A DNA stretch of 47,807 nucleotides from Methylotenera sp. RIFCSPLOWO2_02_FULL_45_14. Lineage in GTDB: Bacteria; Pseudomonadota; Gammaproteobacteria; Burkholderiales; Methylophilaceae. The notes beneath the pieces were generated by a model. It searched no databases. It had not been told where the DNA came from and was given only the letters and a program-made list of their open reading frames with translations. The position numbers and the translations under genes are program-made. Position 1 is the stretch's first letter; every line of letters begins with the position of its first letter. The stretch covers positions 3,003 to 50,809 of the forward strand of contig MHBU01000021.1 of the NCBI GenBank assembly GCA_001803395.1, in the 5' to 3' direction. Below, one piece after another: positions 18,634-44,748 of this stretch.

Positions 18634-20895
<2,262 letters not shown>

Positions 20896-21035: not shown

Positions 21036-22733
21036 TTATAAACTATGTAAATACCAAACTAGTACTACAGCCGCAATTAGTGTGATATATGGTAGAACAC
21101 CCGCTCGATTAGTTACGCCATCCTCATGTGTGTCAATATGCATATCTTCCAGCATTTGTGAGGGAAATTTACCTTTATCTTGAATATAGTGACGATATAC
21201 AAACACCGGGAGAATCAACGACGCAAAAATTAATCCTGTTTTTAGTGTACCCTCGCCCCAAATATCTGCACCTAAAGCCATGATGCCTATGTTTACAAAA
21301 GCTAGAATACCACCCAAAGCCAACAGTAATGTCGGTGCTTTATATGGTCGATCCCAGTTAGGTCTGTCCATGCGGTGTATCCAACCAGCGTTTAAGTTGA
21401 GGAAGTTGAAAATGATATAGCCGATATTTGAAGCTGCAAGAATGAATACATAATCTGACATCATCAGCAGAATCAAGTTAAAGCAAAGATCTGTCCACAT
21501 AGCACTTGTAGGTGCGCCGTGATCATTCACCTTAGACAAATACTTCGGTAACCAGCCATCAACTGAAGCTTGGTAAAGTGTTCTTGATGAACCAGCCATT
21601 GAAGTCATGATAGCCAACATTAATGCAAGCACCATCATTATGACCATCACGTTGGCAATAAATGCTCCGCCACCAATAATGTCAGAAAATGCTGCTGCTA
21701 CGCCCATGCCGCTATAAATTGAAGCTTCTAACATGCCATCATAAACTGCTGGTGAAGTAACAACACCTGCAGCATCCACTACAGCCGGAGTTACCAAGTG
21801 ACCCAGACCTAAATGACTTTGAAAAGCAATAGGAACCAATGTAAATACCGCTATACATAGTAAACCAGAATAAAAAATGGCTTTAAAAGTATCTGATTTA
21901 GGATTCTTAAATTCACGCGTATAACAAACTGCAGTCTCAAAACCATAGGTTGACCAAGCAGCAATAAAGAGGCCGCCTGCCATCAATTTCCAAGCCTCTA
22001 TACCCCACACACCATCAATCACATTGCCTGCAGCATCGTGAGCAAGAGGTGCCAGTGGGAAAAAATTCGCTTGCGAGATATCTCCTGTTAACAAAGGGAC
22101 TAAACCAATCAACATCAGTGGAATAAGTGCAATGACACCGAGAATCATCGTGGTTTTAGCAGAGCGCAAGATACCGCCATGCTGAATCGTAAACACCGAG
22201 AGCAGGACTGCGGCACCTACTATAAAGGTAGCATTGATTCTAAGCACTAAACCATCTTTAATGGCACCTAAATCCAATAGCGTAATTTGCCATGTATTAA
22301 TCACTGCATCAGGAGCAAATAAGGCACTCAGCATATATCCTGCCGCCAAACCCGACCCAATAGCCAGCACAGGTGACCATGCAAACCAGTTACACCATAC
22401 TGATACAGGGGCAATAAACTTACTGTATTTTACCCATGCTACCGCTCCATAAATTGATGCCCCACCTGATTTGTGAGGGAATAAACCTGCAATTTCCGCA
22501 TAAGTAAACGCTTGTATAAAGCCAAATGTAATAGAGATAGCCCAAATCATCCAAGCTGGTTTACCTACGGTTGCTGCAATCGCACCGATTGAAAACAAGA
22601 CAAGCGCAGGAACACCACTTGCCACCCAAAATGCACCTTGCCAACCAATCTTTCTGTGTAACGTTGCGTTTTGCGCCAGTACGTTCTCAGAGAGATCAGC
22701 TGAAATAGCATCAACTGAAGAATTTACGCTCAA
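21036..22733 (-). CDS. APC-superfamily amino-acid/amine permease
   Basis: A 565-residue inner-membrane transporter with 12 or more hydrophobic helices. The first helix segment (GWQGAFWVASGVPALVLFS) and the GFETAVCYTREFKNP loop fit the APC fold. The start is TTG at 22733, preceded by AAGGGGAC; it begins LSVNSSVDAI. Being immediately upstream of trimethylamine dehydrogenase makes uptake of tri- or dimethylamine a reasonable guess, but APC members usually carry amino acids and the substrate cannot be read from the sequence. Confidence 0.82.
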   Translation of the reverse strand: MSVNSSVDAISADLSENVLAQNATLHRKIGWQGAFWVASGVPALVLFSIGAIAATVGKPAWMIWAISITFGFIQAFTYAEIAGLFPHKSGGASIYGAVAWVKYSKFIAPVSVWCNWFAWSPVLAIGSGLAAGYMLSALFAPDAVINTWQITLLDLGAIKDGLVLRINATFIVGAAVLLSVFTIQHGGILRSAKTTMILGVIALIPLMLIGLVPLLTGDISQANFFPLAPLAHDAAGNVIDGVWGIEAWKLMAGGLFIAAWSTYGFETAVCYTREFKNPKSDTFKAIFYSGLLCIAVFTLVPIAFQSHLGLGHLVTPAVVDAAGVVTSPAVYDGMLEASIYSGMGVAAAFSDIIGGGAFIANVMVIMMVLALMLAIMTSMAGSSRTLYQASVDGWLPKYLSKVNDHGAPTSAMWTDLCFNLILLMMSDYVFILAASNIGYIIFNFLNLNAGWIHRMDRPNWDRPYKAPTLLLALGGILAFVNIGIMALGADIWGEGTLKTGLIFASLILPVFVYRHYIQDKGKFPSQMLEDMHIDTHEDGVTNRAGVLPYITLIAAVVLVWYLHSL

Positions 22734-25633: not shown

Positions 25634-28208
<2,575 letters not shown>

Positions 28209-29184: not shown

Positions 29185-30384
29185 CTAGTAAGCAAACATT
29201 CCGTTTACGAATGAATCGGACGGAGACTCTATAAAATTCGTAACCTCCAACCCGAATCCCGCCATACTTGGTATTTTGCGCGATTCACCCATGAGACACA
29301 TTTTTACCACGCCTAAATCACGTAATATCTGTGCCCCAATGCCATAATCCTTAAGAGTATGTTTATTACTAACTGGCTGATCTGCCGATTTAATTGCATG
29401 AATAATATCCTGACTTTTTTCATCACGCCTTAGCATCACGATAATGCCAGATTTTGCTTCATATATCGTCTGCATGGCATGTGGCAAGCTCCAACTGTGA
29501 CTCTTACTACTAGCATCAAGTAAATCAAATACCGACAAAGGTTCATGCACACGAACTAAAACACTTTTATTTGCAGCAACGTCACCTTTTACTAGAGCAA
29601 GATGAGTTTCCTTGGAAGTTGAATCATGAAATGCAATCAAATTAAATTGACCAAAAGCAGTTTCAATCACTCGCTCGGCAACGCGCACTACTAGGTGCTC
29701 AGTCTGGCTACGATGTTTAATCAAATCAGCAATGGTGCCGACTTTGAGTTCATGTTCTGCAGCAAACTCGAGTAAATCTGGCAAGCGCGCCATTTCACCA
29801 TTATCTTTGAGAATTTCACAAATCACAGCTGCAGGTTCGAGGCCTGCCAGTTTGGCAATATCGCAACCTGCTTCGGTATGACCTGCCCTTACCAATACAC
29901 CACCTTTTTGTGCAATTAGCGGAAACACATGTCCAGGGCTGACAATATCGACAGGCCTTGCATTGACATTGACTGCAGTCTGAATAGTATGGGCCCTGTC
30001 TGCAGCAGAAATACCAGTGGTAACGCCATCTGCAGCCTCAATAGATACTGTGAAATTAGTACCCATTTTAGTACCATTTTTCATCACCATTGGCTCTAGG
30101 TTAAGTTGTTTTCCACGCTCTTCGATAAGAGTCAGACAGATGAGGCCACGGCCATGCTTAGCCATAAAGTTGATATCTGCTGGCGTAACAAATTGTGCGG
30201 CCATGACTAAATCACCTTCGTTTTCGCGATCTTCGTCATCTAACAACACCACCATACGGCCCTGCTGTAGTTCATCAATTATTTCTACAATCGGGCTAAT
30301 TGATACCGAACTGTTTAATAACAAGTCCAGTGTTGAAGTTAGTTTGGGTTGTTCTAAAAATTTTAAACTGACGATATTATTCAT
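29185..30384 (-). CDS. ribB: 3,4-dihydroxy-2-butanone-4-phosphate synthase with degenerate GTP cyclohydrolase II domain
   Basis: A 399-residue RibBA-type protein. The RibB domain (about 30-230) has LLDDEDRENEGDLV and RAGHTEAGCDIAKLAG, the Mg and substrate site, and should make the four-carbon unit of riboflavin. The C-terminal RibA-like domain (about 235-399) lacks the zinc-binding C-x2-GD...C-x-C signature of active GTP cyclohydrolase II; its only Cys is in KMCLMG. It is thus a RibBX-like fusion. It begins 3 bases after folE2 and probably shares its transcript. FMN demand from Tmd, Dmd and MgsC gives a rationale for its position. Confidence 0.9.
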   Translation of the reverse strand: MNNIVSLKFLEQPKLTSTLDLLLNSSVSISPIVEIIDELQQGRMVVLLDDEDRENEGDLVMAAQFVTPADINFMAKHGRGLICLTLIEERGKQLNLEPMVMKNGTKMGTNFTVSIEAADGVTTGISAADRAHTIQTAVNVNARPVDIVSPGHVFPLIAQKGGVLVRAGHTEAGCDIAKLAGLEPAAVICEILKDNGEMARLPDLLEFAAEHELKVGTIADLIKHRSQTEHLVVRVAERVIETAFGQFNLIAFHDSTSKETHLALVKGDVAANKSVLVRVHEPLSVFDLLDASSKSHSWSLPHAMQTIYEAKSGIIVMLRRDEKSQDIIHAIKSADQPVSNKHTLKDYGIGAQILRDLGVVKMCLMGESRKIPSMAGFGLEVTNFIESPSDSFVNGMFAY

Positions 30385-30387
30385 GAT

Positions 30388-31179
30388 TTATTCACTAGAA
30401 ATGCAAGCGTAGGCAGAGTGATTATGGATGGATTCAAAATTCTCACATTCCACGATGTAATTTTTAATTCGTGGTTCATTATTAAATGTAGTTGCAATAT
30501 CCCGAACCATATCTTCAACAAATTTTGGATTATCATAGGCACGCTCAGTGACGTATTTTTCGTCAGGTCGCTTCAGCAATCCATAGAGTTCTGATGATGC
30601 TTGCGCTTCTACCATAGCGATCATGTCTTCTATCCACATAAACTTTCTGAGCCCGATAGTAACTGTAACGTGGGAGCGCTGGTTATGAGCTCCATAGGCT
30701 GAAATTTTCTTTGAACATGGGCAAAGACTAGTGACAGGAATTAAAACCTTAACTTTAATGTCATGCTTGCCATTTTTTATTTCGCCAATAAATGTGACCT
30801 CGTAATCAAGCAGACTTTTCACACCAGAAACTGGCGCGGATTTATTAATAAAATAAGGAAAAGTCATTTCAATATGACCAGATTGAGCTTCTAATCGGCT
30901 TGCCATTTCTTTCAATATGATTTGAAAACTCTCGACTGAAATTTCTCGCTCATTACTATTAAGTATCTCAACAAATCGAGACATATGAGTGCCTTTGAAG
31001 TGTTGCGGTAAATGCACATACATATTAAATATTGCGACCGTGTGTTGAGCACCACCAGTTTTATCTTTGACTTTTACTGGATGACGTATTGCTTTAATAC
31101 CCACCTTATCAATTGCAAGTTGGCGTATGTCAGCTAAGTTTTGTACATCTTCTATCGAAAAATCTACTGGTAAATTCAT
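30388..31179 (-). CDS. folE2: GTP cyclohydrolase IB (FolE2)
   Basis: A 263-residue type IB GTP cyclohydrolase, which makes dihydroneopterin triphosphate for folate and other pterins with less strict metal demand than FolE. Visible are [20 protein letters not shown], the catalytic CPCSKKIS segment, [11 protein letters not shown] and the C-terminal [13 protein letters not shown]. Usual length. It heads a unit with ribB. Next to methylotrophy genes, extra pterin supply for tetrahydrofolate (methylene carrier of NMG dehydrogenase) or methanopterin is plausible. Confidence 0.93.
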
Positions 31180-31211: not shown

Positions 31212-31251
31212 TACCTATAAGGTAGAATTTTGAATCAAACCACGCTGGTTT
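31212..31251. promoter_or_regulatory. Two short dyads upstream of folE2
   Basis: TACCTATAAGGTA (31212-31224) and AAACCACGCTGGTTT (31237-31251) are perfect small inverted repeats 30-70 bases before the folE2 start. Neither resembles the Zur box known for some folE2 genes. They may be operators or leader hairpins. Confidence 0.3.
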
Positions 31252-31299
31252 CGAAACGACTTAAAAATATTCAAAACTGCATAATAATAAGCACTACCT

Positions 31300-31354
31300 A
31301 AAAAAAGAAGGGAGGCAAGTACAAATGTTGTTCATGAGATTGCTTACCTCCCTT
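31300..31354 (-). terminator. Terminator of the small-membrane-protein/permease operon
   Basis: On the minus strand AAGGGAGGTAAG pairs with CTTGCCTCCCTT (one mismatch) around a 23-base loop and is followed by CTTTTTTT. It lies about 150 bases after the last gene of the cluster and before folE2. Confidence 0.8.
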
Positions 31355-31506
31355 AAAGTTGCTACTCAACGTAAGGTTAGGAGATGACTAATCGTCAAAC
31401 TTACGTAACATATTTTCAATCTTGCCACGTATCTTAACAATTACCTTAAAGTACTACTCCATTTGGATAAGTACTTTTTACCAGATGATTACATTTAATT
31501 TAATGA
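31355..31506. other. 3' untranslated region of the permease operon
   Basis: An AT-rich spacer between the end of the 94-aa membrane protein gene and the terminator. I see no gene. Confidence 0.4.
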
Positions 31507-31791
31507 TTATTTAGTAAATATTTCCATGCGATATTTGGCCCAGTAATATGCATCCAACACAGAGATTGCATAGATAAAAAATCCACCAGAAAGCTTACCC
31601 AACATGGAAATGTGATGTTGTGCAAGATTAAAGGTAATGAGGCCAAGAATAATCATGAAACATGCCATAAAAAAACCTCGCTTAGGCGCATTGTTGAATA
31701 CTTGGCCCATTCCCGGTAGTAAGATGGCAATGAGTAAAACCCACTTTGGATCTACTGGTCGTTGTACTGCATTGTTTTCGATAGTTGTCAT
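31507..31791 (-). CDS. Small membrane protein, 94 aa
   Basis: Two to three hydrophobic helices (PKWVLLIAILLPGMGQVFNN, GFFMACFMIILGLITFNLA, FFIYAISVLDAYYWA). The PGMGQ-x-F-N motif followed by a basic turn resembles TM2-type small membrane proteins. AAGGTTACTT precedes the ATG. It is the last gene of the cluster running from 34853 to 31507. Function unknown. Confidence 0.65.
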   Translation of the reverse strand: MTTIENNAVQRPVDPKWVLLIAILLPGMGQVFNNAPKRGFFMACFMIILGLITFNLAQHHISMLGKLSGGFFIYAISVLDAYYWAKYRMEIFTK

Positions 31792-31814
31792 AAGTAACCT
31801 TATAATCTGATTAA

Positions 31815-32483
31815 TTAATTTTTGGATATTTCAGAAACTTCCATACTTTTTCGTATTGCTACAGCTTGTTCTAGAAGTGTCTCTACCACGTCTTGACCGA
31901 TAGGCGTGCTTTCATATACGGCATTACGCATAATTAGATACTCACCACGTTCAGCCTGCTTTATCATATAAGTTAACCTCACCATGCTTGGCGTGACTAA
32001 TAACTCCTTCATCCTCGTGTCAACAAATAATCTAGGTATATATGGTTCTAGTAGAGCTAAATCTACAACTTGATTCTGGTACTTAATAATTGCATGTTGC
32101 GGCCAACTTGGCGGGATTGCTAAGTTACCGTCCCATTGCCATGAAGGACTATAGAACTCGTTATTTGATGGTCTAACAATCAAATCTAGCGTGCCATTAC
32201 TCAGCTTGTTAGCCTCGACTTTAATTAACAGCCACAATGGCGGTACTTTTCGCCAACCTAATGTATCTTCAACAATGCTGAATGAAACCTTATAACCTGC
32301 ATAATGACCTTGCAGTAAGGGTAGATTAGCCTTATCTAGACTTTGCTGCGGTTGTTGCAATAAAAGTACACATTCGTCAAATAAATGACTTCGTGCCTGT
32401 ACTTTATAACTAGCATGATTATTATATTTACGATACATAATCACTACCATCACCACTAATAAAACTAAAACGGCAATATTCAT
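31815..32483 (-). CDS. Membrane-anchored protein of unknown function, 222 aa
   Basis: One N-terminal membrane helix (IAVLVLLVVMVVIMYRKY) anchors a soluble domain of about 195 residues, which has mixed strands and helices and a Trp-rich part (WRKVPPLWLLIKVEA, PSWQWDGNLAIPPSW). I do not recognise the family. It follows the ethanolamine-permease-like gene by 65 bases and precedes the 94-aa membrane protein. The anchor orientation would place the domain either in the cytoplasm or the periplasm; the basic residues after the helix favour the cytoplasm. Confidence 0.65.
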   Translation of the reverse strand: MNIAVLVLLVVMVVIMYRKYNNHASYKVQARSHLFDECVLLLQQPQQSLDKANLPLLQGHYAGYKVSFSIVEDTLGWRKVPPLWLLIKVEANKLSNGTLDLIVRPSNNEFYSPSWQWDGNLAIPPSWPQHAIIKYQNQVVDLALLEPYIPRLFVDTRMKELLVTPSMVRLTYMIKQAERGEYLIMRNAVYESTPIGQDVVETLLEQAVAIRKSMEVSEISKN

Positions 32484-32548
32484 TTTAACCTTTATGTGGC
32501 AACGGCTTTAAAGCCGTTGCCAATCTGTCTTACATAAACACCATAAGG

Positions 32549-33943
32549 TTAATAGCCCTTTGGACGTGGCCATGGCATTGTGAATTGATCCGCACGTTTT
32601 ACGTATTTGTAACGACGTAATACGAACCAGATAGATGCCAAAATATAGAATGCCATAATAGATAACAGCGAAGCACCGTAACCCAAGAATGTCGCAAAGT
32701 AAGTAGCACAACACAAGGTTAGCAATGTAATCGCAGGTATTGGATGGAAAGGATGGATGTAGCCACGATGTATCGTACCTAATGGCCACATTTTCCTGAA
32801 CTTGATCATGTTAAAGGTCATGAATGTGTAGCCAAGTAAGCCAGACAAGATAGAAAACGTAATGACTTGATCTAACAATCCAGTAAATGCAAATGATATA
32901 GCAATTGGCACTAAAAATAGCACTGAGCGATAGGGCGTCCGGTATTTTGGGTGAATCGCACCAAAGAACACAGGCATATAACGATCACGTCCAAGCGAGA
33001 ACCAAGCCCGTGATGCGTCATTGATACAACCATTCGCTGAAGCAATTGCAGCAAAAGCTGTCGCCACAAATAACATTAGCTGAAGTTGACTACTACCAAG
33101 CAACGTAGCAGCATCGTACATCGGTGTCACTGCCTGCCCCAGATATTGCCAAGGCATTAAACCAGTTGCAACAAACCAAGTTATGGTTGCAGCGACTAGC
33201 AAAGTCATCATGCCACCCATTGTTCCGAGTGGAATAGATCGACCTGCAGAGCGCACTTCTTCAGCCGCCTGACAAGTACCTTCAATACCAAGGTAATACC
33301 ACATACCAAATTGTAGTGAAGCAACCACCCCTATCCAACCGTAAGGCAGATCTGTAAGTAACGCTTGATGCTGAAGCACAACACCTTGACTCAATGGATC
33401 GACAGATAAGAACAACACTATCAAAGATGCAAAGGCGAGAAAGGTAATGACTAAATTGAGAGTAAGAGTCGCGAACACACCTCGATAGTTAAGCCATGCC
33501 AAAAAAGCCACAGTCAACACCACGAACGGCTTGGTATCAAGATTCGTATATCCCATGACCTCAGCACCAGACTTCATGAGGTCACCAACCACAAGCGCAT
33601 CAGCTGCACAAAGCATGGTATAAGCCATGACTAAATACAATCCCACATTAAATGCCATCAGCGGACCTATGATGTGTTTTGCCTGCGTATACTGCCCACC
33701 TGCTGCTGCAACTGTAGAAGTGACTTCAGAATCGATCATCGCCACACAGGTATAAAGTAAGCCAATCACCCAACAGGCAATAAGCGAGGCATAAGCACCA
33801 CCCTTACCTACTGTAAAGTTCCAGCCCATAAACTCACCTACCAACACAATACCTACACCCAAAGCCCATATGTGAAATGGGTTGAGTACTTTAAGCATGG
33901 CGATGGGCTTACTACTGCTGCTCGTTATTTTTTCGCTAGCCAT
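32549..33943 (-). CDS. APC-family permease, ethanolamine-permease-like
   Basis: A 464-residue transporter of 12 helices resembling the EAT ethanolamine permease group: FHIWALGVGIVLVGEFMGWN (helix 1), AAAGGQYTQAKHIIGPLMAF, YLGIEGTCQAAEEVRSAGRS and SANGCINDASRAWFSLGRDR. Ethanolamine is a small primary amine, so methylamine is a sensible substrate given the NMG operon just upstream; this is inference. The start codon overlaps the stop of the 60-aa gene by one base (TAATG), implying coupled translation with that small protein. Confidence 0.85.
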   Translation of the reverse strand: MASEKITSSSSKPIAMLKVLNPFHIWALGVGIVLVGEFMGWNFTVGKGGAYASLIACWVIGLLYTCVAMIDSEVTSTVAAAGGQYTQAKHIIGPLMAFNVGLYLVMAYTMLCAADALVVGDLMKSGAEVMGYTNLDTKPFVVLTVAFLAWLNYRGVFATLTLNLVITFLAFASLIVLFLSVDPLSQGVVLQHQALLTDLPYGWIGVVASLQFGMWYYLGIEGTCQAAEEVRSAGRSIPLGTMGGMMTLLVAATITWFVATGLMPWQYLGQAVTPMYDAATLLGSSQLQLMLFVATAFAAIASANGCINDASRAWFSLGRDRYMPVFFGAIHPKYRTPYRSVLFLVPIAISFAFTGLLDQVITFSILSGLLGYTFMTFNMIKFRKMWPLGTIHRGYIHPFHPIPAITLLTLCCATYFATFLGYGASLLSIMAFYILASIWFVLRRYKYVKRADQFTMPWPRPKGY

Positions 33944-34125
33944 TATTCTTTCCCCTCTTCTAGATGAATGCCGTGAACGACATCATCTTCACCACCTTCA
34001 CGTGAGCTCATCAAATATTCTTCGTCATATTGCGAAGAAATCATAAATGCATCTACCACCATCCAAACCAACATAACCGCTGATATGCTCCATGCTGTAT
34101 ACACCAGAATATCCCAAAATTTCAT
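33943..34125 (-). CDS. 60-aa single-helix membrane protein
   Basis: One membrane helix (ILVYTAWSISAVMLVWMVVD) followed by an acidic tail (YDEEYLMSSREGGEDDVVHG). GGGAGAG precedes the ATG. The stop is fused to the permease start (TAATG), the arrangement expected for a small subunit made together with its transporter. No family recognised. Confidence 0.7.
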   Translation of the reverse strand: MKFWDILVYTAWSISAVMLVWMVVDAFMISSQYDEEYLMSSREGGEDDVVHGIHLEEGKE

Positions 34126-34154
34126 GATATCTCTCCCTTTAAGTGAGTAACTGC

Positions 34155-34547
34155 TTATTTATTATCGAATTTTTCTCTAATGACTTCGCGATATTCTTTA
34201 TCTGACACTTTCAGCATGAAGATAAAATAACCAGCTACCACTAGGATAGTAATGATTAACATCATAGGATCAATTGAATAATCAAACCGGCTGTTAATTA
34301 ATACTGCAGCTTTCTCTGGGTCGTAACCTAGCTTGATCCATTGCTCCTGTTGTATTGCATTCTGGCCTAAAGATTCCCAGCTTACATTTACAGCTGCTGC
34401 AACTATCGCTGCTGTTGCATCGGCCTTAGCTTCGGCTTTAAACAGCAACGGCACCATCAGACTAGCGTAAACCAATATAAGTACTAAAATAGTGTCAAAT
34501 ATCTGACCAAACATGCCCTGTTTAGGCGGGATATAGTTTTTCTTCAT
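34155..34547 (-). CDS. 130-aa membrane protein of unknown function
   Basis: Two membrane helices (about 16-36, FDTILVLILVYASLMVPLLF; and about 93-113, DPMMLIITILVVAGYFIFML) enclose an Ala-rich domain of about 55 residues, ending in the charged tail KVSDKEYREVIREKFDNK. AGGAGAATTAC precedes the ATG. It sits between two other small membrane proteins upstream of the permease. No family recognised. Confidence 0.68.
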   Translation of the reverse strand: MKKNYIPPKQGMFGQIFDTILVLILVYASLMVPLLFKAEAKADATAAIVAAAVNVSWESLGQNAIQQEQWIKLGYDPEKAAVLINSRFDYSIDPMMLIITILVVAGYFIFMLKVSDKEYREVIREKFDNK

Positions 34548-34556
34548 GTAATTCTC

Positions 34557-34853
34557 CTATCGATTATTTTTAGCTGCACGATTAGCATCTAAATGCTTAA
34601 TGTCTAAGCCATAGATGAATTCTTTGTCTTCTTTAAAGTGCCTTGTCATCGCAAACACTGACGCTGTGTTAAAAAGCATCAACATAAAGCTAGCTACGTA
34701 AAGTACAAGACGAATATTTGAGTCCTGAACAATGCCAAGGATGGCTATTAGCACAAATATAACAACAGCCCATAAAAACACGACATCGAACCAAGCCATA
34801 AAGCAATCGCGTAGATACATTTCGTTCATTCTTTTTTTAATATCTTCTCTCAT
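34557..34853 (-). CDS. 98-aa membrane protein of unknown function
   Basis: Two adjacent membrane helices (about 20-42 and 48-69) with a charged N-terminus (REDIKKRMNEMYLRDC) and basic C-terminus. AGGAGAGAGG precedes the ATG. First gene of the small-membrane-protein/permease cluster. The architecture (two helices, cytoplasmic tails) recalls small accessory subunits of symporters, but no sequence family is recognised. Confidence 0.68.
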   Translation of the reverse strand: MREDIKKRMNEMYLRDCFMAWFDVVFLWAVVIFVLIAILGIVQDSNIRLVLYVASFMLMLFNTASVFAMTRHFKEDKEFIYGLDIKHLDANRAAKNNR

Positions 34854-35176
34854 AACCCTCTCTCCTTTTTATTTACTTTTTATAATTAGTAAACCAGTGA
34901 AATAAGAATTAGAGTAGTCAGCCAAAAGGAGGGCACAATAGATAACGACGTAGAAGTGGCACATATGAGTGCCTTGAAAGACCGAGTGTGGAATGTATAG
35001 TTATAAGATAGCTACACAAGTAAAAAGTGAGAGTACGCGCATTTAATATGAATATTTTTTTTACCTTATTCCGGTAGTTGGAGGTCGAACCCGCCTTCAA
35101 GTAAAAAAAACTATTCATTACGCATACCCTCATAAAACCCAAATTAATGGGGGGAGTGAAAATGTTTAGAAAAAAA
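34854..35176. other. Spacer between mgsC and the permease cluster
   Basis: About 320 AT-rich bases. GGCAC at 34958 and GTGCC at 34969 form a small dyad; there is no T-run terminator after mgsC that I can see. Either the NMG transcript reads through into the permease cluster or the cluster has its own promoter near its start. Confidence 0.4.
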
Positions 35177-36529
35177 TCAGAATTTTGTTACTCCTGGAAT
35201 CCAACTAGTACCAGCAAGTGGGACTTGTGCCATTGCTGAAGCTTCTATTGTTAACGCAACTAGATCTTCTGGCTCAAGATTATGCAAATGCGACTTACCG
35301 CAGGCACGTGCAACTATTTGTGCCTCCATGGTCATCACTGTTATGTAATTAGCCAAACGGTGACCAGCTTTAATAGGGTCTACCCGCTTCATGAGCTCAG
35401 GATCTTGCGTGGTGATACCAGCAGGATCTTTGCCTTCATGCCAATCATCGTAAGCACCTGCTGTTGTACCTAGCTTCCGGTACTCTTTTTCCAGATGTGG
35501 ATCATTGTCACCGAGTGCAATTAAAGCGGCAGTTCCGATCGCTACAGCATCAGCACCCAGCGCCAAGGCTTTGGCAACATCTGCTCCATTGCGTATACCC
35601 CCCGACACGATTAGCTGAACTTTGCGGTGCATACCCAAATCTTGAAGCGCCTGCACTGCGGGACGAATAGCTGCAAGAATAGGTAAACCTACATGCTCAA
35701 TGAACACTTCTTGCGTTGCGGCAGTACCGCCTTGCATACCATCCAGCACCACAACATCCGCACCGGCCTTTACCGCAAGAGCCACATCAAAATAAGGGCG
35801 CGTAGCACCAATCTTCACATAAATTGGTTTTTCCCAATCTGTGATTTCGCGGATTTCAGCAATCTTGATTTCAAGATCATCCGGGCCAGTCCAGTCCGGA
35901 TGACGACAGGCGGAACGTTGATCGATACCTTCTGGCAAACAGCGCATCTTCGCTACGCGCTTGGTGATTTTCTGGCCTAGCAACATGCCTCCGCCGCCTG
36001 GTTTTGCGCCCTGCCCGATCACCACTTCAATGGCATCAGCCTTGCGCAGGTCATCAGGGTTCATGCCATAACGTGATGGCAGGTACTGATACACTAAAGT
36101 TGTCGAATGACCACGTTCCTCCGGCGTCATACCACCATCACCCGTAGTCGTACTGGTACCTACTGCGCTGGCACCGCGACCCAATGCTTCCTTGGTTGGG
36201 CCAGATAAAGAGCCAAAACTCATCCCAGCAATCGTTACTGGTGTTTTAAGGTAGATAGGTTTCTTGGCAAAGCGTGTTCCCAGCACTACATCGGTACCGC
36301 ATTTTTCACGGTAGCCTTCTAGTGGATAACGGCTGACTGATGCTCCTAAGAATAATAGGTCATCAAAATGTGGCAGCTTGCGCTTGGAACCTCCACCACG
36401 GATATCATAAATACCAGTAGCAGCAGCACGTCTAATTTCAGAGTTCGTATACTCATCAAACGTTGCAGACTGACGCGGTGAGGTTTGCGGAGTTTTATGT
36501 ATTGTATCTGTTGATTTTTCATCGCTCAT
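35177..36529 (-). CDS. mgsC: N-methylglutamate synthase subunit C (glutamate-synthase FMN domain)
   Basis: A 450-residue protein corresponding to the FMN-binding synthase domain of glutamate synthase. Marks: GMSFGSLSGPTKEALGRGA, GQGAKPGGGGMLLGQKI, KIGATRPYFDVALAVKAGAD and VSGGIRNGADVAKALALGAD. With MgsA and MgsB it makes N-methylglutamate from gamma-glutamylmethylamide or methylamine and glutamate-derived carbon. The start at 36529 lies one base after the mgsB stop and is preceded by AGGAGC; longer frames overlap mgsB. Confidence 0.93.
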   Translation of the reverse strand: MSDEKSTDTIHKTPQTSPRQSATFDEYTNSEIRRAAATGIYDIRGGGSKRKLPHFDDLLFLGASVSRYPLEGYREKCGTDVVLGTRFAKKPIYLKTPVTIAGMSFGSLSGPTKEALGRGASAVGTSTTTGDGGMTPEERGHSTTLVYQYLPSRYGMNPDDLRKADAIEVVIGQGAKPGGGGMLLGQKITKRVAKMRCLPEGIDQRSACRHPDWTGPDDLEIKIAEIREITDWEKPIYVKIGATRPYFDVALAVKAGADVVVLDGMQGGTAATQEVFIEHVGLPILAAIRPAVQALQDLGMHRKVQLIVSGGIRNGADVAKALALGADAVAIGTAALIALGDNDPHLEKEYRKLGTTAGAYDDWHEGKDPAGITTQDPELMKRVDPIKAGHRLANYITVMTMEAQIVARACGKSHLHNLEPEDLVALTIEASAMAQVPLAGTSWIPGVTKF

Positions 36530-36530
36530 T

Positions 36531-37223
36531 TTAGTATGCTCCTGCATTATCGACATGGAAATGGTAAAGGGTGCGAGCAGAACCATATTGTTTGAAACTA
36601 TCAGGGCTCACATCTGCATAGCCAGATTTTTTTAAGAGGTCTGCCAGAATTTGTCTATCTTCTGCATTCATTGTTTTTTCTTCACAATCTGCGCCAAGAC
36701 TCTTAACTTTACCCCGTACAAAAACTTTAGCTTCGTAGATTGAATCACCTAAACCTTCACCTGCATCACCCAAAATCACAAAGTTACCGGCCTGTGCCAT
36801 AAAGGCTGAAAAACTGCCAACTGACCCACCAACAACAATATCAGCACCTTTTAAGGCAATAGCGCAGCGCAACCCAGCATCACCATCAATTACCAGCAAT
36901 CCGCCATTTGCTGTAGCGCCAGCAGCATTTGATGCGAAGCCTTTAACATGCACATGGCCAGACATCATATTTTCTGCGACGCCGCTACCAGCACTTCCTT
37001 CAATCGTTACTTTAGCAATTTGATTCATGCCAGCGGCGTAATAACCAGCGTGGCCTTTGATTGTTACGTCAAGTTCAGCTTTTAAACCAACTGCAATATT
37101 ATGGGCGCCATTTGGATTTTCAATGACGATCGATTTTCCATTTAGGCCACTTGCATCACCATGAAGGAATTGATTCACTTCACGCAATGACTTAGTGTCT
37201 AAGTCAAATTTTAGAGTTTCCAT
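36531..37223 (-). CDS. mgsB: N-methylglutamate synthase subunit B (GXGXG domain)
   Basis: A 230-residue protein homologous to the C-terminal GXGXG beta-helix domain of glutamate synthase (repeating Gly motifs, for example GHAGYYAAGMNQIAKVTIEG and GSAGSGVAENMMSGHVHVKG). It has a structural and coupling role in the MgsABC complex. AAGGAGATG precedes the ATG; its start lies inside the 3' end of mgsA (13-base overlap). Confidence 0.92.
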   Translation of the reverse strand: METLKFDLDTKSLREVNQFLHGDASGLNGKSIVIENPNGAHNIAVGLKAELDVTIKGHAGYYAAGMNQIAKVTIEGSAGSGVAENMMSGHVHVKGFASNAAGATANGGLLVIDGDAGLRCAIALKGADIVVGGSVGSFSAFMAQAGNFVILGDAGEGLGDSIYEAKVFVRGKVKSLGADCEEKTMNAEDRQILADLLKKSGYADVSPDSFKQYGSARTLYHFHVDNAGAY

Positions 37224-38107
37224 ACGTACATCTCCTTAGGTGAAGGTTCGAAAACCTTTGCGTTTTTAATATCTGGCAGATGCGCCAATGAGCGAAACTC
37301 GGAAGCAATCGCAACATAATCATCATGCTCCGCAATAATTGCTGGTTTACAGCCATATGGGTCGCGTACTAATGCAAGTTCAGTACTTGTACCCATTAGT
37401 AATGTATAAAAACCATCAAGCTCTTCAAAACCATGATTTAGTGCGGTTTCAAGATCATCACCTTCACGCATACGCCATTGCAGAAAACGACAAGCCGCTT
37501 CAGTATCATTATCTGTTTCAAACTCAATGCCTTCATACTGCAATTTACGGCGCAGGCTGTTAGCATTTGACAATGAACCGTTATGCACTAAACACCAATC
37601 TTCACCAGCGGTAAATGGATGTGCATGCGCTGGAGTAACTGCTGACTCTGTTGCCATACGAGTATGCCCAACCAAATGAGTGCCCTTAAAGTTCTTGAAA
37701 TCGTAGCGTTCAGCAACTTGAGCTGGTGTGCCGATATCCTTATAGATATCCATCAATTGTCCTACTGATAGCAGATGTAATTGAGGATAATGTTCTTTCA
37801 GCCAAATTTTTACTGTTGCTGGCTCTAAGGTCGTTGTCAACACAGCATGATTAGCTTTTGGCTCAATCTTCGCTTTGATGCTTAAGTGCTTTTCAAAATC
37901 GTGGCCTAATTTCGTCCAATTAAAGTCTGCCACGCCTGAATAAAGGCTGAATTTTCTTGCATCAGCCGAAACAGGTGCACCAAATATGGCCATCCCAGCA
38001 GAGTCTGGGCCACGCTCAGTCATGCCAATTAACATTGGCAGCATGAGCTCGCCAATTGAGTCTCGCATCTTGGGGTTTCTAACCAATAATCCTACAATTC
38101 CACACAT
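37211..38107 (-). CDS. mgsA: N-methylglutamate synthase subunit A (class II glutamine amidotransferase)
   Basis: A 298-residue Ntn-type amidotransferase: MCGIVGLLV puts the catalytic Cys at position 2, and GTHLVGHTRMATES plus HPFTAGEDWCLVHNGSLSN form the glutaminase site. In this pathway the domain handles gamma-glutamylmethylamide, releasing methylamine for the synthase. AAGGAGAA precedes the ATG. First gene of mgsABC, 50 bases after gmaS. Confidence 0.93.
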   Translation of the reverse strand: MCGIVGLLVRNPKMRDSIGELMLPMLIGMTERGPDSAGMAIFGAPVSADARKFSLYSGVADFNWTKLGHDFEKHLSIKAKIEPKANHAVLTTTLEPATVKIWLKEHYPQLHLLSVGQLMDIYKDIGTPAQVAERYDFKNFKGTHLVGHTRMATESAVTPAHAHPFTAGEDWCLVHNGSLSNANSLRRKLQYEGIEFETDNDTEAACRFLQWRMREGDDLETALNHGFEELDGFYTLLMGTSTELALVRDPYGCKPAIIAEHDDYVAIASEFRSLAHLPDIKNAKVFEPSPKEMYVWKL

Positions 38108-38157: not shown

Positions 38158-39492
38158 CTAGAAAAACTCTACGTACCGATTAATTTCCCAATCAGAAACA
38201 TGGCGTTGGTATTCCATCGACTCTGCACGTTTAATTTTGATAAATTCTTCTGATAGTGAATCGCCTAAGGCGTCGCGAATGACCTTATCACCTTCAAATT
38301 CATCTATCGCTTCACTCAAGCTTTGTGGCAATATACCAATTCCTTGTTCACGCATTTGCGCAGCTGATAAGTCATATAAATTAATAGCATGCCCATCACC
38401 TGGGTGTAGTTCTCGTTTAACACCATCAAGACCTGCGGCAATCACTGCTGCTGTCGTCAAGTAAGGATTGCAACTACCATCTGGTAAACGCAACTCTAAA
38501 CGACCATATGGAATGCGTACCATCGTTGAGCGATTGTTATTACCATACGAGATATATGCTGGGGCCCAAGTTGAACCTGTGAGCGACTGGCTTACCACTA
38601 AACGTTTATAAGAGTTCACTGTTGGGCAAGCTAATGCTGTAATTGCTGGCGCATGTGCAAGAATACCGCCCATAAAGTGATACGCTAGTTTTGATAAACC
38701 ATGGCCTGTTTTATCGCCATCATCTTGAAACAAACTTTTTTTGCCGTCACCAATTGACATATGCATATGCATACCATTTCCTGGACGGTTACCAAAAGGT
38801 TTAGGCATGAATGAACAAATCATACCCAGCTCATTTGCGATATGGCTGGCTGCCATTTTGAACATTAGGTAATCATCTGCACTTTTCATGCAATCAGCAT
38901 AGGTGTAATTAATCTCAAACTGACCATTTGCATCTTCGTGGTCAATCTGATAAATATCTAAACCCGCTGCAATTAAAGTCTCTGTTAATCGCTCTAGAAA
39001 TGCAGATTGCTTTGACATACTTTTATAGTCATAGCATGGTTTTACTAAGGTATCTGTAGCGTCGTGTGGATGAATTCCGCCTTTTTCATCTTTACGTAGT
39101 AAAGAAAATTCTGGCTCTAGGCCTGTATAAAGAATCCAACCATTTTTAGCTAGGCGATCAGTTTGTGCTTTGAGCGCCACACGTGAATCGTGGCAATATG
39201 GCTTTCCTTCTACATGACCATCACAAATAATACGTGCATATCCTGGCTGCCATGGCATTAATGTCAAGGTTGATAAGTCACCTACCGCCATGTAGTCTGG
39301 GCCATTTGGCGCAATACCCATGCCCCAAATAGCACCGCCAGCAAACCCAGCACCACCTTTAAGTATGCTACCAATGTGCGCAGCAGGAACTGATTTTACT
39401 TTAGCAACACCATGAATATCGACAAACTGAGCTAATATGTATTTAACATCATTTTCTTTTAGAAACTTTTTTGCTTCATCTAACGTTTTCAT
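38158..39492 (-). CDS. gmaS: Gamma-glutamylmethylamide synthetase
   Basis: A 444-residue glutamine-synthetase-type ligase (type III group) that joins methylamine to glutamate using ATP. Visible are the beta-grasp domain ([19 protein letters not shown]), the metal ligands in [31 protein letters not shown], and the late NSYKRL and [10 protein letters not shown] stretches. Context inside the mgd/mgs operon identifies it as GmaS rather than glutamine synthetase. AGGGAGAAG precedes the ATG. Confidence 0.95.
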
Positions 39493-39564: not shown

Positions 39565-39621
39565 CTTTAGTTTTGATCGTAAGCTTTTGTTCTGACGCCT
39601 AGCTTTAGTTCTGATACCTAG
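39565..39621 (-). repeat. Three 19-bp tandem repeats across the mgdD stop codon
   Basis: On the plus strand CTTTAGTTTTGATCGTAAG (39565-39583), CTTTTGTTCTGACGCCTAG (39584-39602) and CTTTAGTTCTGATACCTAG (39603-39621) follow head to tail. The last copy contains the mgdD stop and its final codons (RYQN), so the two others look like degenerate duplications of the gene end. Confidence 0.7.
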
Positions 39622-40282
39622 CAAGCCCTACTGCTCCACCACCCAACTCCACAGCAATTTCCAATAAAACATCCCACATGTATGGTCCATAAGTGCCATC
39701 ACACCAAACACGATAAACCTGCTCACCACCTATAGTCTGACGAAGAACAGTGGCTGATATGCCAGCAACTTGCGTCATGATTACATCTTTAGCAGAGAGT
39801 GATTTTTCACGTAAATCGAGAGAACATAATTCAGAAAATAAATTAAGCACTTCACTACCACTCAAAATAAATGCAGCATCAGCACGTGGTACCTTATAAA
39901 CACCAGCTACTCGCATAGTGTCGCCAGCTAGTTTTTTGCATGCTAAACCACCCAATTGATCCTCAATCAAAAACTCACTTGAGCCTAATCGTAATACCAA
40001 TGTTTTTTGATCACATAAGGTCCAAGCATTTGGATTAGCAGGAATCGCTATTTCACGATCAGCAAGATATTGAGAAGCTTGAGGCCCTTTTACACCATAA
40101 CGCTCGAAACAACTTACGTCAGTTACTCCTAACACTTTTTTTCTTGCCTGCTCAATATCAGCACTCGCAAATTCAACGGCTATTTTCATTCCATTCACCA
40201 CGTCCCATTTGACAGTGCCATTAGATTGGGCATGTGCAATAGGTGAAATCGGAGCTATTTTTTTAATATCAAACTGTTGCAT
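39605..40282 (-). CDS. mgdD: N-methylglutamate dehydrogenase subunit D (sarcosine oxidase gamma-like)
   Basis: A 225-residue protein related to the gamma subunit of heterotetrameric sarcosine oxidase (GcvT-like fold): GVTDVSCFERYGVKGPQASQ, LRLGSSEFLIEDQLGG and QTIGGEQVYRVWCDGTYGPY. It starts one base after the mgdC stop, in the order A-B-C-D known for mgd operons. It probably caps the complex structurally. Confidence 0.9.
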   Translation of the reverse strand: MQQFDIKKIAPISPIAHAQSNGTVKWDVVNGMKIAVEFASADIEQARKKVLGVTDVSCFERYGVKGPQASQYLADREIAIPANPNAWTLCDQKTLVLRLGSSEFLIEDQLGGLACKKLAGDTMRVAGVYKVPRADAAFILSGSEVLNLFSELCSLDLREKSLSAKDVIMTQVAGISATVLRQTIGGEQVYRVWCDGTYGPYMWDVLLEIAVELGGGAVGLARYQN

Positions 40283-40283
40283 A

Positions 40284-43181
40284 TCAAGCTCCCTTTTGAT
40301 TCTTTAAAAATGGAGTTTTCACTACGGTAGCAGTTACCAGTGAACCGTTATCGGTACGTATTTGAAATTCAGAGCCTACTTCATTTTTGTCTGGCGTTAC
40401 ATAAGCAAAGCCTATACAACGGTCTATGAATTTGCTGTAACTTATACTAGTAACACGCCCAAGGATGTCTCTGCCGTCAACCACAAGATTACAATCCATA
40501 GGCATTTCACCTTTGAAATTCTGAGCTAATACGAAGGGTACTAACCGCTTTCTTAATGATCGTTTAGCTAAAATAGTCAGGCTACGTTGACCAATAAAAT
40601 AAGATTTACTCATTTCTATCGCCCAATCAGCGCCAATCTCGAAGGGATTTGTTAGACCATCTGTATCAACACCTGGCATATGATTTCCCATTTCCAAACG
40701 TAATAAACGTTGTGTATCACTGCCAAATGGACGTAAACCATGTTTCTGGCCTGCTTCCATCAGCGCATTCCAGATATGCGGGACTTGTACCATGGGAGCA
40801 TGTAACTCGTATCCCATATCAGACACGAAAGCCACTCGGATTAGTCTGACTTCAACCCCTGCCACTTGACTTTCGCGCACACTACTGATGGGGAATGACT
40901 CATAAGAAAGATCAAGATCTGTAAGAGTAGCTAAAATTTCACGGGCAGATGGCCCCGCAATATTAATGGCCCCTAAAGCCCCAGTTACGTTAACTAAACC
41001 TAAATTTAGCTGCCACATTTGTTGCGAGCGTTGCATTTCACGATAAACTGCCGCCGCATTTGAAGTACCAATAGAAAGGTAAAACAAGTCATCTGCCAAA
41101 CGGCTTGCAATACCATCATCCACAACAACACCTGACTCATCCAGCAACATTACGTACCTACAGCCACCAACTTTTTGAGTTTTGTAAGTGCCTGTAAAGA
41201 AGCGTTCAAGAAACTCCGCTCCATCTGGTCCATGAATCTCAATTTTACCGAAAGAGCTACCGTCAATGATTCCAGCGGATTTACGCACAACCATCGCTTC
41301 TGCCTGAATCGCCTCTTCTTTAGTTTGGCCAGTGGCTGGGTAATAAGCCGCTCTTTTCCATGCGCCAATATCGGTAAACACAGCACCATTTGTTTGATGC
41401 CAATCATGTAGTGAAGTCAGGCGATGAGAATGAAAGCCACGACCACCTAAATGACCGATGGGAGTAGGATGAAAAAATGGTCTTGAAGTCGTCGTACCAA
41501 TTTTTTCTACAGGTAATTCTCGTATTTTCGCCAATATACGAATGGCATTCATATTTGAATGCTTGCCTTGGCTAGGACCCATTCCGACCGTGGTAAAGCG
41601 CTTCATTAGCTCAATATTATCGAAACCTTCTTTAGCCGCATTAACAAAGTCTTTGATTTGAATATCTTCGTCGAAATCTACAAAGTTTTTGCCTTTATCG
41701 TGTGGCACCATTGGGTAAGGGTGACTTGGTGAAATGCCAACATGCTTTTCAATATTGTTTTGTGGTGCCTGTAAACCTAAGTATCGTAAGGCCTCATTCG
41801 CAGCACGCGTGCCATCTTTAATACGCTGATCAAGTTCAAAAATACCATTAACTTTACCTGCTGCAAAAATTCCATCTGGCAATCGGCTTGGGACAAACTG
41901 TTGCACCTCATAATCAAACTGCATCCCAGTACCAGCCTGATACAGTAAAGCGCCAGCTGGTGCCCAGCCTGCGCTCATGGCAATACCATCGCACTCAAGG
42001 GTGAGTTTATTATCAGTAAGTGCTACATTTTCCTTATCATCGTAAGCACAAATCACGGCACCGCGTACACTAGATTTGTCTGATGATGCCAAGGCTTCAT
42101 ATACACAATGCCCTGCGTAAATCTTAACACCACGACGCATAAGGTCTTTAGCACATATACCGCCATTTACACCTGCACGCAAATCAACTAGTGCCACCAC
42201 TTTTGTCCCCGCTTCTAACAAATCAAATGCTACGCGATAACCATAATCATTGGCAGTTACCACAACACCATTGTTAAATGGTTTAACACCGTAGCGATAA
42301 ATTAAACGTTGGGCTGCAGAACCTAACATAACACCTGGCAAATCGTTGTATCTGAACACTGGAGGCTGCTCAAATGCACCACTTGCCACAATTACAGTTT
42401 TAGCACGCACTTTAGTAATACCGCTTGCTGAAACAATAGGAATTAAATGATCCGGGTAGTACCCAGCGGCATAAGTACTCGTGTGCATAGTGATATTTGG
42501 TTGGCTTGCAACTTTACTTAGCAAGTCATTCAGTTCTGTTAAGTTCGAGTGAACCCCACCACGGTTGTAGCTCAAGCTACCCCCTGCTTGGCTATTTTCA
42601 TCCACTATCGTCACTTCTAAACCAGCTTGCGCAGCCACATAAGCTGCAGTTAGACCAGTTGGACCTGCGCCAACCACGAGCAAATCACAATGCGAATGTT
42701 GTTTACGTTTAAGTATGCGTGGATAGTTAAAGTTAACAACACCCAAGCCAGCAGCTTTACGAATTACGTTTTCCCAAAATGGAAAGAAACGGCGTGGCGT
42801 ATGAAAAGCTTTGTAATAGAAGCCTACAGGCAACAAGGGTGAAATAGAATCAATATAACTATTCTTATCTTTTTTAACACCGCCACTGGTATTTACCGCA
42901 GTCAGCACCATGCCATCTTTCACTTCAACAACATCGGCACGAATATTCGTATCAATACCATCAGTCACCAGTACATTCACATCATGATTCGCTAAGCTCA
43001 ACACGCCACGTGGACGATGATATTTAAAGCTACGGCCTAATACTTTTTGGCCAGCCGCCCACAATGCGCTGCTGATGGTATCGCCTTCATAGGCTGGGAA
43101 TGCTTCACCTTCAAACGTGAAATTGATTTTTTTATTACGGTCTACCCATTCACCAGCCCGCTTAGGTGTACGTAAAATCAT
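40284..43181 (-). CDS. mgdC: N-methylglutamate dehydrogenase subunit C (sarcosine oxidase alpha-like)
   Basis: A 965-residue multi-domain subunit: a 2Fe-2S-like N-terminal fold (about 20-95, SFKYHRPRGVLSL), a NAD/FAD Rossmann region with VGAGPTGLTAA at 170-180, and a C-terminal aminomethyltransferase (GcvT) half (about 590-955) that binds tetrahydrofolate in sarcosine oxidase and takes the methyl carbon. The reaction oxidises N-methylglutamate to glutamate and methylene-tetrahydrofolate or formaldehyde. The start overlaps the mgdB stop (ATGA) and follows AGGAGG. Confidence 0.94.
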   Translation of the reverse strand: MILRTPKRAGEWVDRNKKINFTFEGEAFPAYEGDTISSALWAAGQKVLGRSFKYHRPRGVLSLANHDVNVLVTDGIDTNIRADVVEVKDGMVLTAVNTSGGVKKDKNSYIDSISPLLPVGFYYKAFHTPRRFFPFWENVIRKAAGLGVVNFNYPRILKRKQHSHCDLLVVGAGPTGLTAAYVAAQAGLEVTIVDENSQAGGSLSYNRGGVHSNLTELNDLLSKVASQPNITMHTSTYAAGYYPDHLIPIVSASGITKVRAKTVIVASGAFEQPPVFRYNDLPGVMLGSAAQRLIYRYGVKPFNNGVVVTANDYGYRVAFDLLEAGTKVVALVDLRAGVNGGICAKDLMRRGVKIYAGHCVYEALASSDKSSVRGAVICAYDDKENVALTDNKLTLECDGIAMSAGWAPAGALLYQAGTGMQFDYEVQQFVPSRLPDGIFAAGKVNGIFELDQRIKDGTRAANEALRYLGLQAPQNNIEKHVGISPSHPYPMVPHDKGKNFVDFDEDIQIKDFVNAAKEGFDNIELMKRFTTVGMGPSQGKHSNMNAIRILAKIRELPVEKIGTTTSRPFFHPTPIGHLGGRGFHSHRLTSLHDWHQTNGAVFTDIGAWKRAAYYPATGQTKEEAIQAEAMVVRKSAGIIDGSSFGKIEIHGPDGAEFLERFFTGTYKTQKVGGCRYVMLLDESGVVVDDGIASRLADDLFYLSIGTSNAAAVYREMQRSQQMWQLNLGLVNVTGALGAINIAGPSAREILATLTDLDLSYESFPISSVRESQVAGVEVRLIRVAFVSDMGYELHAPMVQVPHIWNALMEAGQKHGLRPFGSDTQRLLRLEMGNHMPGVDTDGLTNPFEIGADWAIEMSKSYFIGQRSLTILAKRSLRKRLVPFVLAQNFKGEMPMDCNLVVDGRDILGRVTSISYSKFIDRCIGFAYVTPDKNEVGSEFQIRTDNGSLVTATVVKTPFLKNQKGA

Positions 43182-43506: not shown

Positions 43507-44748
43507 TTAATGGCCAACAGACGCAGCGCCTTTTTCACCGGTCAGTTCGTAATCTTCAAAACGTGACAAGCGGAATGAGTGAATTAAATCTGGAGCACTG
43601 TCGTTAGCAATCGTTTGCGCCATGGTTTTACCGCTAATTGGTGTGGCTTTAAAGCCCCAAGTACCCCAACCGGCATCCAGATAAAATCCTTCAATCGGCG
43701 TTTTACCCATAATCGGCGCAAAGTCAGGCGTCATATCCGCCATACCTGCCCATTGCCGCACCACTTTTACATTCGATAAAAACGGAAACATGTCCAACAT
43801 GTGTGAAGTTAGCCCTTCCACAAAATCAAGCGTAGAACGAGTAGAATGAACTTCATAGGGATCAAGCGACGAACCCATGACCAACTCACCACGAGAAGAC
43901 TGACTCACATACACATGTAAGCTGCCAGACACTAATATAGTATCTAACCAAGGCTTCATAGGCTCAGTCACACAAGCTTGTAATGGGTGAATAACGATAG
44001 GCGTTTCAAGATCGACCATTTCTGTGATACGTGGCGTAAACCCAGCAACGGCAGATAACACTTGCTTAGTTTCTATGTAGCCTTTATTGGTTTTAACACC
44101 ACGAACTTTGCCATTTATAACATCTATACCCAGCACTTCCGTATTTTGGAAAATCTCAGCGCCTAAACGATCAGCACCTCGTGCATATCCCCAAGCCACA
44201 CCATCATGACGGGCAACAGAACCAGGTGCGTGAAACAAAGCGCCTAAAATTGGCGCTTGCCCGCTACAACTTAAATCTAGCTGCGGGCAAGCTTTAGCGA
44301 TTTCATCAGGGCCTACCACACGGCTTTCAACACCTACATGTTTATTCACTTCTGCGCGCCAACGCATGGTGCGCATTGCAGATTCAGTATGTGCAAGTGT
44401 GAAGTGACCACGCGTTGAGTAAAATAAATTTAAATCAAGTTCTTCTGAAAGACCTTCATAAATCTTAACGCTGGCGTCATAGAAATTAACACCTTCTGGA
44501 GTTAGGTAATTTGAGCGAACGATAGTGGTATTACGACCTGTATTACCACCACCAATATAGCCTTTTTCAAGCACTGCAACATTAGTAATACCATGATCTT
44601 TGGCCAAGTAATATGCAGCTGCAAGACCATGCCCACCACCACCGATAATGACTACGTCATAGGATTTTTTTGGTGTCTCGTGAGACTTAAAAAAACGTGG
44701 TGCGGGATGCTCTTTTGTCAGCGCATACTTAAGTAATCTAAATGGCAT
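43507..44748 (-). CDS. mgdA: N-methylglutamate dehydrogenase subunit A (sarcosine oxidase beta-like, FAD/FMN)
   Basis: A 413-residue DAO-type flavoprotein with the dinucleotide-binding VVIIGGGGHGLAAAYYLA at about 32-49, the NTGRNTTIVRSNY stretch that holds flavin near the active site, and C-terminal GWGTWGFKATPISG. It carries the amine-oxidising flavin of the MgdABCD complex. GGAG precedes the ATG. First gene of the mgd-gmaS-mgs operon; a divergent promoter region with repeated TGAAACTT boxes lies upstream. Confidence 0.93.
   Translation of the reverse strand: MPFRLLKYALTKEHPAPRFFKSHETPKKSYDVVIIGGGGHGLAAAYYLAKDHGITNVAVLEKGYIGGGNTGRNTTIVRSNYLTPEGVNFYDASVKIYEGLSEELDLNLFYSTRGHFTLAHTESAMRTMRWRAEVNKHVGVESRVVGPDEIAKACPQLDLSCSGQAPILGALFHAPGSVARHDGVAWGYARGADRLGAEIFQNTEVLGIDVINGKVRGVKTNKGYIETKQVLSAVAGFTPRITEMVDLETPIVIHPLQACVTEPMKPWLDTILVSGSLHVYVSQSSRGELVMGSSLDPYEVHSTRSTLDFVEGLTSHMLDMFPFLSNVKVVRQWAGMADMTPDFAPIMGKTPIEGFYLDAGWGTWGFKATPISGKTMAQTIANDSAPDLIHSFRLSRFEDYELTGEKGAASVGH

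Follow-up and report, generated by a model that had tools for sequence, protein, structure and literature searches.

The enzymes of the N-methylglutamate (NMG) pathway are well known, and in the excerpts of the literature available to us the entry of methylamine is ascribed to Amt in one operon or left unsaid. A review describes the Amt encoded in the Pseudomonas C5pp gmas-mgsABC-amt operon as a methylamine transporter of the inner membrane (PMC8292978), and a Rhodobacteraceae study has amt among the genes recurring in such clusters (PMC7574528). Here we describe a row of six genes, encoding an APC-superfamily permease (PERM) and five partner proteins (S98, S130, S60, M222 and S94), that lies next to the NMG genes in a 47,807-nucleotide stretch of Methylotenera sp. 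RIFCSPLOWO2_02_FULL_45_14 (contig MHBU01000021.1, positions 3,003 to 50,809 of the forward strand; hereafter the window). From comparative sequence evidence, we think it reasonably likely that the six genes form one multi-component permease importing methylammonium for the NMG pathway. No description of this six-gene module was found in the open-licence papers searched.

APC carriers with a partner protein offer a second comparison. GkApcT was crystallised with the single-transmembrane (TM) protein MgtS packed on TM5; this pair, and SLC7 light chains with 4F2hc or rBAT, resemble the module in setting an APC transporter beside a partner that gives one TM helix (PMC5803215). The module differs in having five partner genes, in a fixed order. 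In the heteromeric SLC7/SLC3 transporters the heavy chain bears an extracellular glucosidase-like domain, and to our knowledge APC carriers otherwise act alone or with one partner. A further APC permease tied to methylated-amine use is the trimethylamine N-oxide (TMAO) permease TmoP (NF053774).

Six genes share one strand and one order

In the window, six frames follow mgsC in a row on the minus strand: S98 (34557-34853, 98 amino acids (aa)), S130 (34155-34547, 130 aa), S60 (33943-34125, 60 aa), PERM (32549-33943, 464 aa), M222 (31815-32483, 222 aa) and S94 (31507-31791, 94 aa). A first-pass annotation, made from the letters of the window, had placed the six frames there on one strand with a shared terminator, and our analysis agrees. 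A terminator-like hairpin closing the module is found at about 31300-31356 on the same strand (AAGGGAGGTAAG ... CTTGCCTCCCTT, then a T run, as read from the sequence), and the 221-nucleotide closing-hairpin region folds with z = -3.68. The S60 stop overlaps the PERM start at 33943 (TAATG) and GA-rich ribosome sites can be read in the sequence, both as that annotation had described.

Genome contigs were scanned with PERM, the best 80 of 344 relatives were taken, and whole-genome and plasmid loci were added. All six genes were found on one strand and in one order at 117 of the 128 loci with a PERM match of at least 400 bits. Because so large a share of the PERM loci holds all six, chance is excluded as the origin of the observation, which is real and stronger than the first-pass annotation claimed. 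At many of the 11 other loci, as far as these were checked, the contig or stretch ends inside the module. The 117 loci include duplicate genomes; after dropping permeases at least 93% identical, 43 representatives remained, among them Methylophilaceae, Methylophaga, Oxalobacteraceae, Paraburkholderia, Methyloversatilis, Rhodocyclaceae, Rhizobiales and Roseobacters, which we take to be Alpha-, Beta- and Gammaproteobacteria. Gene order is the same in all 43, with two frames running over in one: in Sinorhizobium meliloti (L034) the S130 and S60 frames look frameshifted.

Conservation is uneven among the six proteins. Identity to the window ranges from 64 to 98% for PERM (alignment A6, 33 rows, mean column identity 77%) and from 19 to 69% for M222 (A1, 44 rows), and S98 has 7 invariant columns (A3, 35 rows); the remaining alignments hold 43 rows for S130 (A2), 34 for S60 (A4) and 35 for S94 (A5). 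The nearest named relatives, at 98% PERM identity, place the genome as Methylotenera-like. Within the window's family, the next permeases beyond the PERM clade are about 30% identical, and stretches of about 4.3 kb around five of these homologues (L026-L030) do not show the five partner genes. Spacing is tight at most junctions, with gaps of at most 30 bases or an overlap for S98-S130 (97/117), S130-S60 (98/117), S60-PERM (92/117) and M222-S94 (105/117). It is looser between PERM and M222 (28/117).

Module genes occur in genomes with the NMG pathway

PERM (E 1e-100) was searched for across 398 Pseudomonadota genomes alongside profiles of S130 and M222 (E 1e-4). Each matched 14 genomes, the same ones for all three, and all of these are among the 44 with MgsA (E 1e-50). 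The Fisher p-value for the PERM-MgsA association is 5e-15, which ignores shared ancestry; the 14 module genomes come from six families and seven genera, with 8 of the 14 in one genus (g139), and are therefore not independent. In the window's own family (187 genomes), PERM was found at 81% identity or more in 25, MgsA (E 1e-40) in 53, and both in 24.

The position of the module relative to the NMG genes was counted for 93 loci (one genome counted twice, as L064 and L114), taking NMG genes of at least 200 bits in stretches that are often short. The stretch holds such a gene at 69 of the loci and none at 24. By nearest NMG gene, the module stands after mgsC at 42 loci, before mgdA at 11, before mgsA at 8 and by gmaS at 8. 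Linkage that persists through different arrangements is better explained by a functional connection than by a single inherited layout. MgsA was also searched for in the whole genome or record of 17 of 18 loci (16 of the 24 with an NMG-less stretch, plus L099 and L110), and 14 of the 17 matched. On plasmids of Aminobacter (L031) and Pseudohalocynthiibacter (L032) the module does not adjoin NMG genes; instead, hppD or hmgA is found 0.6-6 kb away. In the Aminobacter plasmid, MgsA is about 21 kb from the module.

These data bear on another idea, in which M222 and the small proteins do not serve PERM. They would instead tether the NMG enzymes, or the electron transfer of these, to the membrane, and the permease would be a neighbour inherited along with them. 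N-methylglutamate dehydrogenase must hand electrons to a carrier, and at 65 of the 93 loci the module shares a strand with the NMG gene closest to it, both of which would fit such a role. However, S130 and M222 track the 14 genomes of PERM, and in the 30 further MgsA genomes of the phylum sample their profiles matched none of the top 10 (S130) or 7 (M222) first-look candidates scored in each genome. In addition, the permease is about 19 kb from MgsA in one genome (G383) and on a different contig in another (G380). We consider membrane anchoring of the NMG enzymes improbable.

Published expression data may touch the module. According to the text of the paper, the NMG genes and 'co-clustered conserved proteins' of M. 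universalis FAM5 are up 6-10-fold on methylamine (PMC5023235). Because the module comes straight after mgsC in a related genome, EHg5 (L079), by analogy it may be among these methylamine-induced co-clustered genes. At three of the four Methyloversatilis loci (L079, L081 and L104) a 109-aa frame, SMR/EmrE-like by eye, lies between mgsC and S98.

The permease and its candidate substrate

PERM scores 89.9 bits against PF13520 (gathering cut-off 27), which places it in the APC superfamily. With the ethanolamine permease equivalog TIGR00908 it shares the fold family, but its score of 170.2 bits is far below the cut-off of 381.75, leaving it ethanolamine-permease-like and outside the equivalog; it also differs in a distinct, strongly conserved C-terminus with the element QFTMPWPRPKGY. 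Against the TMAO permease model NF053774 (cut-off 690 bits), PERM gave no match at E 1, and the tmoP gene elsewhere in the window (21036-22733) scores 837 bits. PERM did not match Amt (PF00909) either, and at E 1 gives two AA_permease families only.

The first TM segment reads GEFMGWNF in PERM and GEYFGWSY in the five family homologues of about 30% identity, so that GE[FY]xGW is common to PERM and these Methylophilaceae proteins; the corresponding segment of GkApcT reads GTGIF. We infer that the glutamate in TM1 of PERM would suit a small amine without a carboxylate.

The distribution of Amt points in the same direction. Among mgs-bearing loci 9 kb or longer, Amt genes were found at 13 of the 46 that lack the module and at 1 of the 62 that have it (p 5e-5, for loci that are not independent); 12 of the 13 have an NMG gene no more than 1.3 kb away. 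Amt beside gmaS-mgsABC, one of which has been called a methylamine transporter, is thus found in NMG loci without the module and belongs to a protein family other than that of PERM. This pattern, together with the linkage to NMG genes, is the main evidence for methylammonium as the substrate. In the module-less Methylophilaceae loci L130, L131, L133 and L141, amt lies immediately past the xre gene on the upstream side of mgdA.

The module could instead be a multi-component permease for another compound, by exchange of glutamate, N-methylglutamate or gamma-glutamylmethylamide, by transport of another small amine, or by export of surplus ammonium or amine. The low score against the ethanolamine permease model would allow this, as would the nearest solved relatives of PERM by sequence, two entries for the amino-acid transporter GkApcT (named from PMC5803215). 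In S. meliloti the module is also near genes annotated like a dimethylamine (DMA) monooxygenase set, which we presume them to be, and the SMR-like frame of Methyloversatilis may be counted on the same side. Against it, TM1 of PERM carries GE[FY]xGW and not the GTGIF of GkApcT, and the Amt pattern suggests an ammonium-like substrate. On balance we regard a different substrate as unlikely, at a level that still deserves attention.

Partner proteins below family cut-offs

None of the window's S98, S130, S60, S94 and M222 proteins matches a Pfam or NCBIfam family above its curated cut-off. Scattered weak matches were all that Pfam gave for sets of relatives of S94, M222, S130 and S98. The most regular was to DUF5683 (20 of 35 S94 members at E 0.01 or better), for which the window's S94 scores 21.0 bits and so falls under the cut-off of 26.7. 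The Pfam scans of module proteins and relative sets returned no MgtS-type or heavy-chain-type family and no glucosidase-like heavy-chain domain.

All five partners have predicted membrane segments. S98 has two TM segments, predicted by eye, and a conserved C-terminal IYGLDIxHLD; S130 has two long hydrophobic helices linked by a conserved WESLGQ..QWEKLGY segment; S60 has a single TM and a conserved tail, YDEDxLMSSREG; and S94 is multi-TM with the motifs LPGMGQV and FIYAxSxxDAY. The AlphaFold2 model of S130 is weak (pLDDT 79, pTM 0.43).

M222 has one N-terminal TM helix and a soluble beta-rich domain, and its AlphaFold2 model is confident (pLDDT 93.2, pTM 0.88). The best Foldseek match, and the sole one at E of 0.001 or below, is TtfA (6t84; E 5.1e-4, prob 1.00); by sequence, the M222 profile A1 matched no PDB chain at E 1. 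TtfA itself has a TM at the N-terminus and a C-terminus judged to be cytoplasmic, and it is an accessory that MmpL3 needs (PMC6593404). M222 shares the N-terminal TM, and its soluble domain is probably cytoplasmic too since basic residues follow the TM helix. TtfA differs in serving an RND lipid transporter, MmpL3, in mycobacteria.

A Usp gene is present between PERM and M222 at 30 of the 117 loci, duplicates included: 27 were found in the PERM-M222 gap and 3 have a stop-to-stop frame starting inside PERM. The family (PF00582, cut-off 24) was confirmed for two Methylophaga proteins at 117.6 and 118.1 bits. In the window this gap is 65 bases, too small for a Usp gene. At two Methyloceanibacter loci (L107 and L110) the permease and Usp frames are fused in frame near the permease end. 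The junctions differ between the two, so sequencing errors or recent indels are possible causes, and we give the fusion little weight.

The first-pass annotation had offered a membrane sensor complex for methylamine as an alternative, and we found no direct support for it. In such a scheme the module would be a transceptor controlling the NMG genes, with uptake secondary, and the cytoplasmic domain of M222 and the Usp protein of some relatives could carry the signal. No signalling family was found above cut-off, however, and many loci, whether they hold the module or not, have an xre-type regulator gene close to the NMG cluster. We judge a sensor to be very improbable.

A covarying hairpin separates mgsC from the module

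The first-pass annotation had seen no clear terminator between mgsABC and the module. That statement has to be corrected, as an intercistronic RNA hairpin, a putative terminator, is found there (35019-35138, minus strand) with a 14-pair outer stem, a 77-nucleotide loop containing CCTCCAACTACC and then CTTTTTA. A simple terminator scan, with loops of 3-8, does not list it. The 323-nucleotide gap between mgsC and S98 folds with z = -4.05, and the RNA model R1 scores 136 bits on the window hairpin, whose sequence is part of R1.

Stems with a U-rich tail were found at 52 of 130 mgsC loci (35 distinct sequences, including the window's). They occur in Methylophilaceae and Methylophaga with the module and at three loci without it (L129, L135 and L137, the last a poor likeness); the search found none at mgsC loci of Oxalobacteraceae, Methyloversatilis, Paraburkholderia or alphaproteobacteria. 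Compensatory double changes are present at 10 of 19 pairs in one alignment (A11, 16 rows) and at 12 of 25 in that of the Methylophaga form (A12, 10 rows), in rows preselected for a stem and U-rich tail, which favours pairing. An earlier alignment (A10, ten rows) has double changes at 4 of 28 pairs and a covariation term of +0.47. The loops are clade-specific and C-rich, with CYTCC in A11 and GATCYYTACCCCGTC in A12. With 150 first-look candidates scored per genome, R1 has one copy each in four of six genomes, the window's included; among 33 sources it matches 4, two of them (L046 and L048) from outside its alignment.

Two other explanations for the gap were rejected. A riboswitch or other Rfam family was dropped after Rfam 15 gave no match at the gathering threshold in the window and none at E 1 in 31250-35300. 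A hidden gene was considered for a frame of 68-116 aa that is open in 12 Methylotenera-type sequences, the window included. Its mismatches by codon position are nearly flat (1519:1507:1686, vs 1099:643:3093 for S98), so the frame is not read as a protein under purifying selection.

We read the hairpin as a leaky terminator or differential-expression hairpin, which would allow the enzymes to be produced at a higher level than the transporter. It is possibly also the source of a 3' untranslated region small RNA.

Neighbouring genes in the window

Upstream of the module on the minus strand are the NMG synthase genes mgsC (35177-36586), mgsB (36531-37223) and mgsA (37211-38107), named from the first-pass annotation and by analogy with annotated orthologues, followed by gmaS (38158-39492), mgdD (39605-40282), mgdC (40284-43181) and mgdA (43507-44748). 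The gmaS-mgd gene order of the window is the same in many relatives. In many Methylophilaceae and Methylophaga loci, the genes downstream of the module (29185-31179 in the window) look like folE2 and ribBA; this adjacency suggests that pterin and flavin supply is linked to NMG metabolism. The window's TMAO permease gene is flanked by two related amine-dehydrogenase-like genes encoding 753 and 746 aa (18634-20895 and 25968-28208), which we take to be of the trimethylamine/DMA dehydrogenase type.

A model for the module and the evidence against it

As we picture it, PERM, an APC-fold permease of the ethanolamine-permease branch, would import methylammonium. The 98-, 130-, 60- and 94-aa proteins would be obligate membrane partners stabilising or gating it, a role modelled on the single-helix partner of another APC transporter, and M222 a membrane-anchored, cytoplasm-facing accessory subunit with a TtfA-like fold. 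In some relatives the Usp-family protein may add cytoplasmic regulation.

Several observations weigh against methylammonium import for the NMG pathway. The pathway itself occurs without PERM, as 30 of the 44 MgsA genomes in the phylum sample and 29 of the 53 in the window's family have no PERM match; the S130 and M222 searches were limited to the top 10 and 7 first-look candidates of each genome, respectively, and may have missed weak distant relatives elsewhere. At 33 of the 46 module-less mgs loci the stretch has no Amt and hence neither transporter, with no systematic search made for others. The misses of the MgsA search are two metagenome-assembled genomes (MAGs) and one 62-kb plasmid record searched alone. 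This record, from Pseudohalocynthiibacter, has the module near hmgA and no MgsA, the rest of the genome being outside the search. The two MAGs (L053/G583 and L059/G584) hold the full module but no MgsA and no GmaS (E 1e-60), and are counter-examples unless they are incomplete; methylamine dehydrogenase (PF02975) had no match in them, in a search that is uninformative as its control matched nowhere. A third, 84%-complete MAG (G167) has PERM, no MgsA and a GmaS-like match of 46% identity. In the FAM5 table, the eight NMG genes listed are up 6.6-12.8-fold with q-values of 0.65-0.75 and the module genes are unnamed (PMC5023235). Finally, the likeness of M222 to TtfA comes from one Foldseek match with TM-scores of 0.40/0.48 and a root-mean-square deviation of 5.6.

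Apart from G583, G584 and G167, the small frames are conserved and accompany the permease and NMG genes. Of the first-pass proposal of an amine transporter with dedicated small subunits, the gene order, the joint presence of the three members examined in 14 of 398 genomes and the NMG linkage stand; methylamine as the substrate and the complex are what we infer from them. A transporter with partners is well supported by the comparative evidence. The fuller picture we hold tentatively and, taken whole, with considerable doubt: an obligate multi-subunit APC methylammonium transporter, with an optional Usp protein, that replaces Amt in some NMG methylotrophs and is kept below enzyme level by a new hairpin, covarying and with a conserved C-rich loop, which may also yield a small RNA.

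A transporter locus found across three proteobacterial classes, with five partners below family cut-offs, makes the uptake step of the NMG pathway testable. If the model is true, the module would exemplify an APC carrier built with many small subunits, and might connect accessory proteins of TtfA type with transport beyond the mycobacteria.

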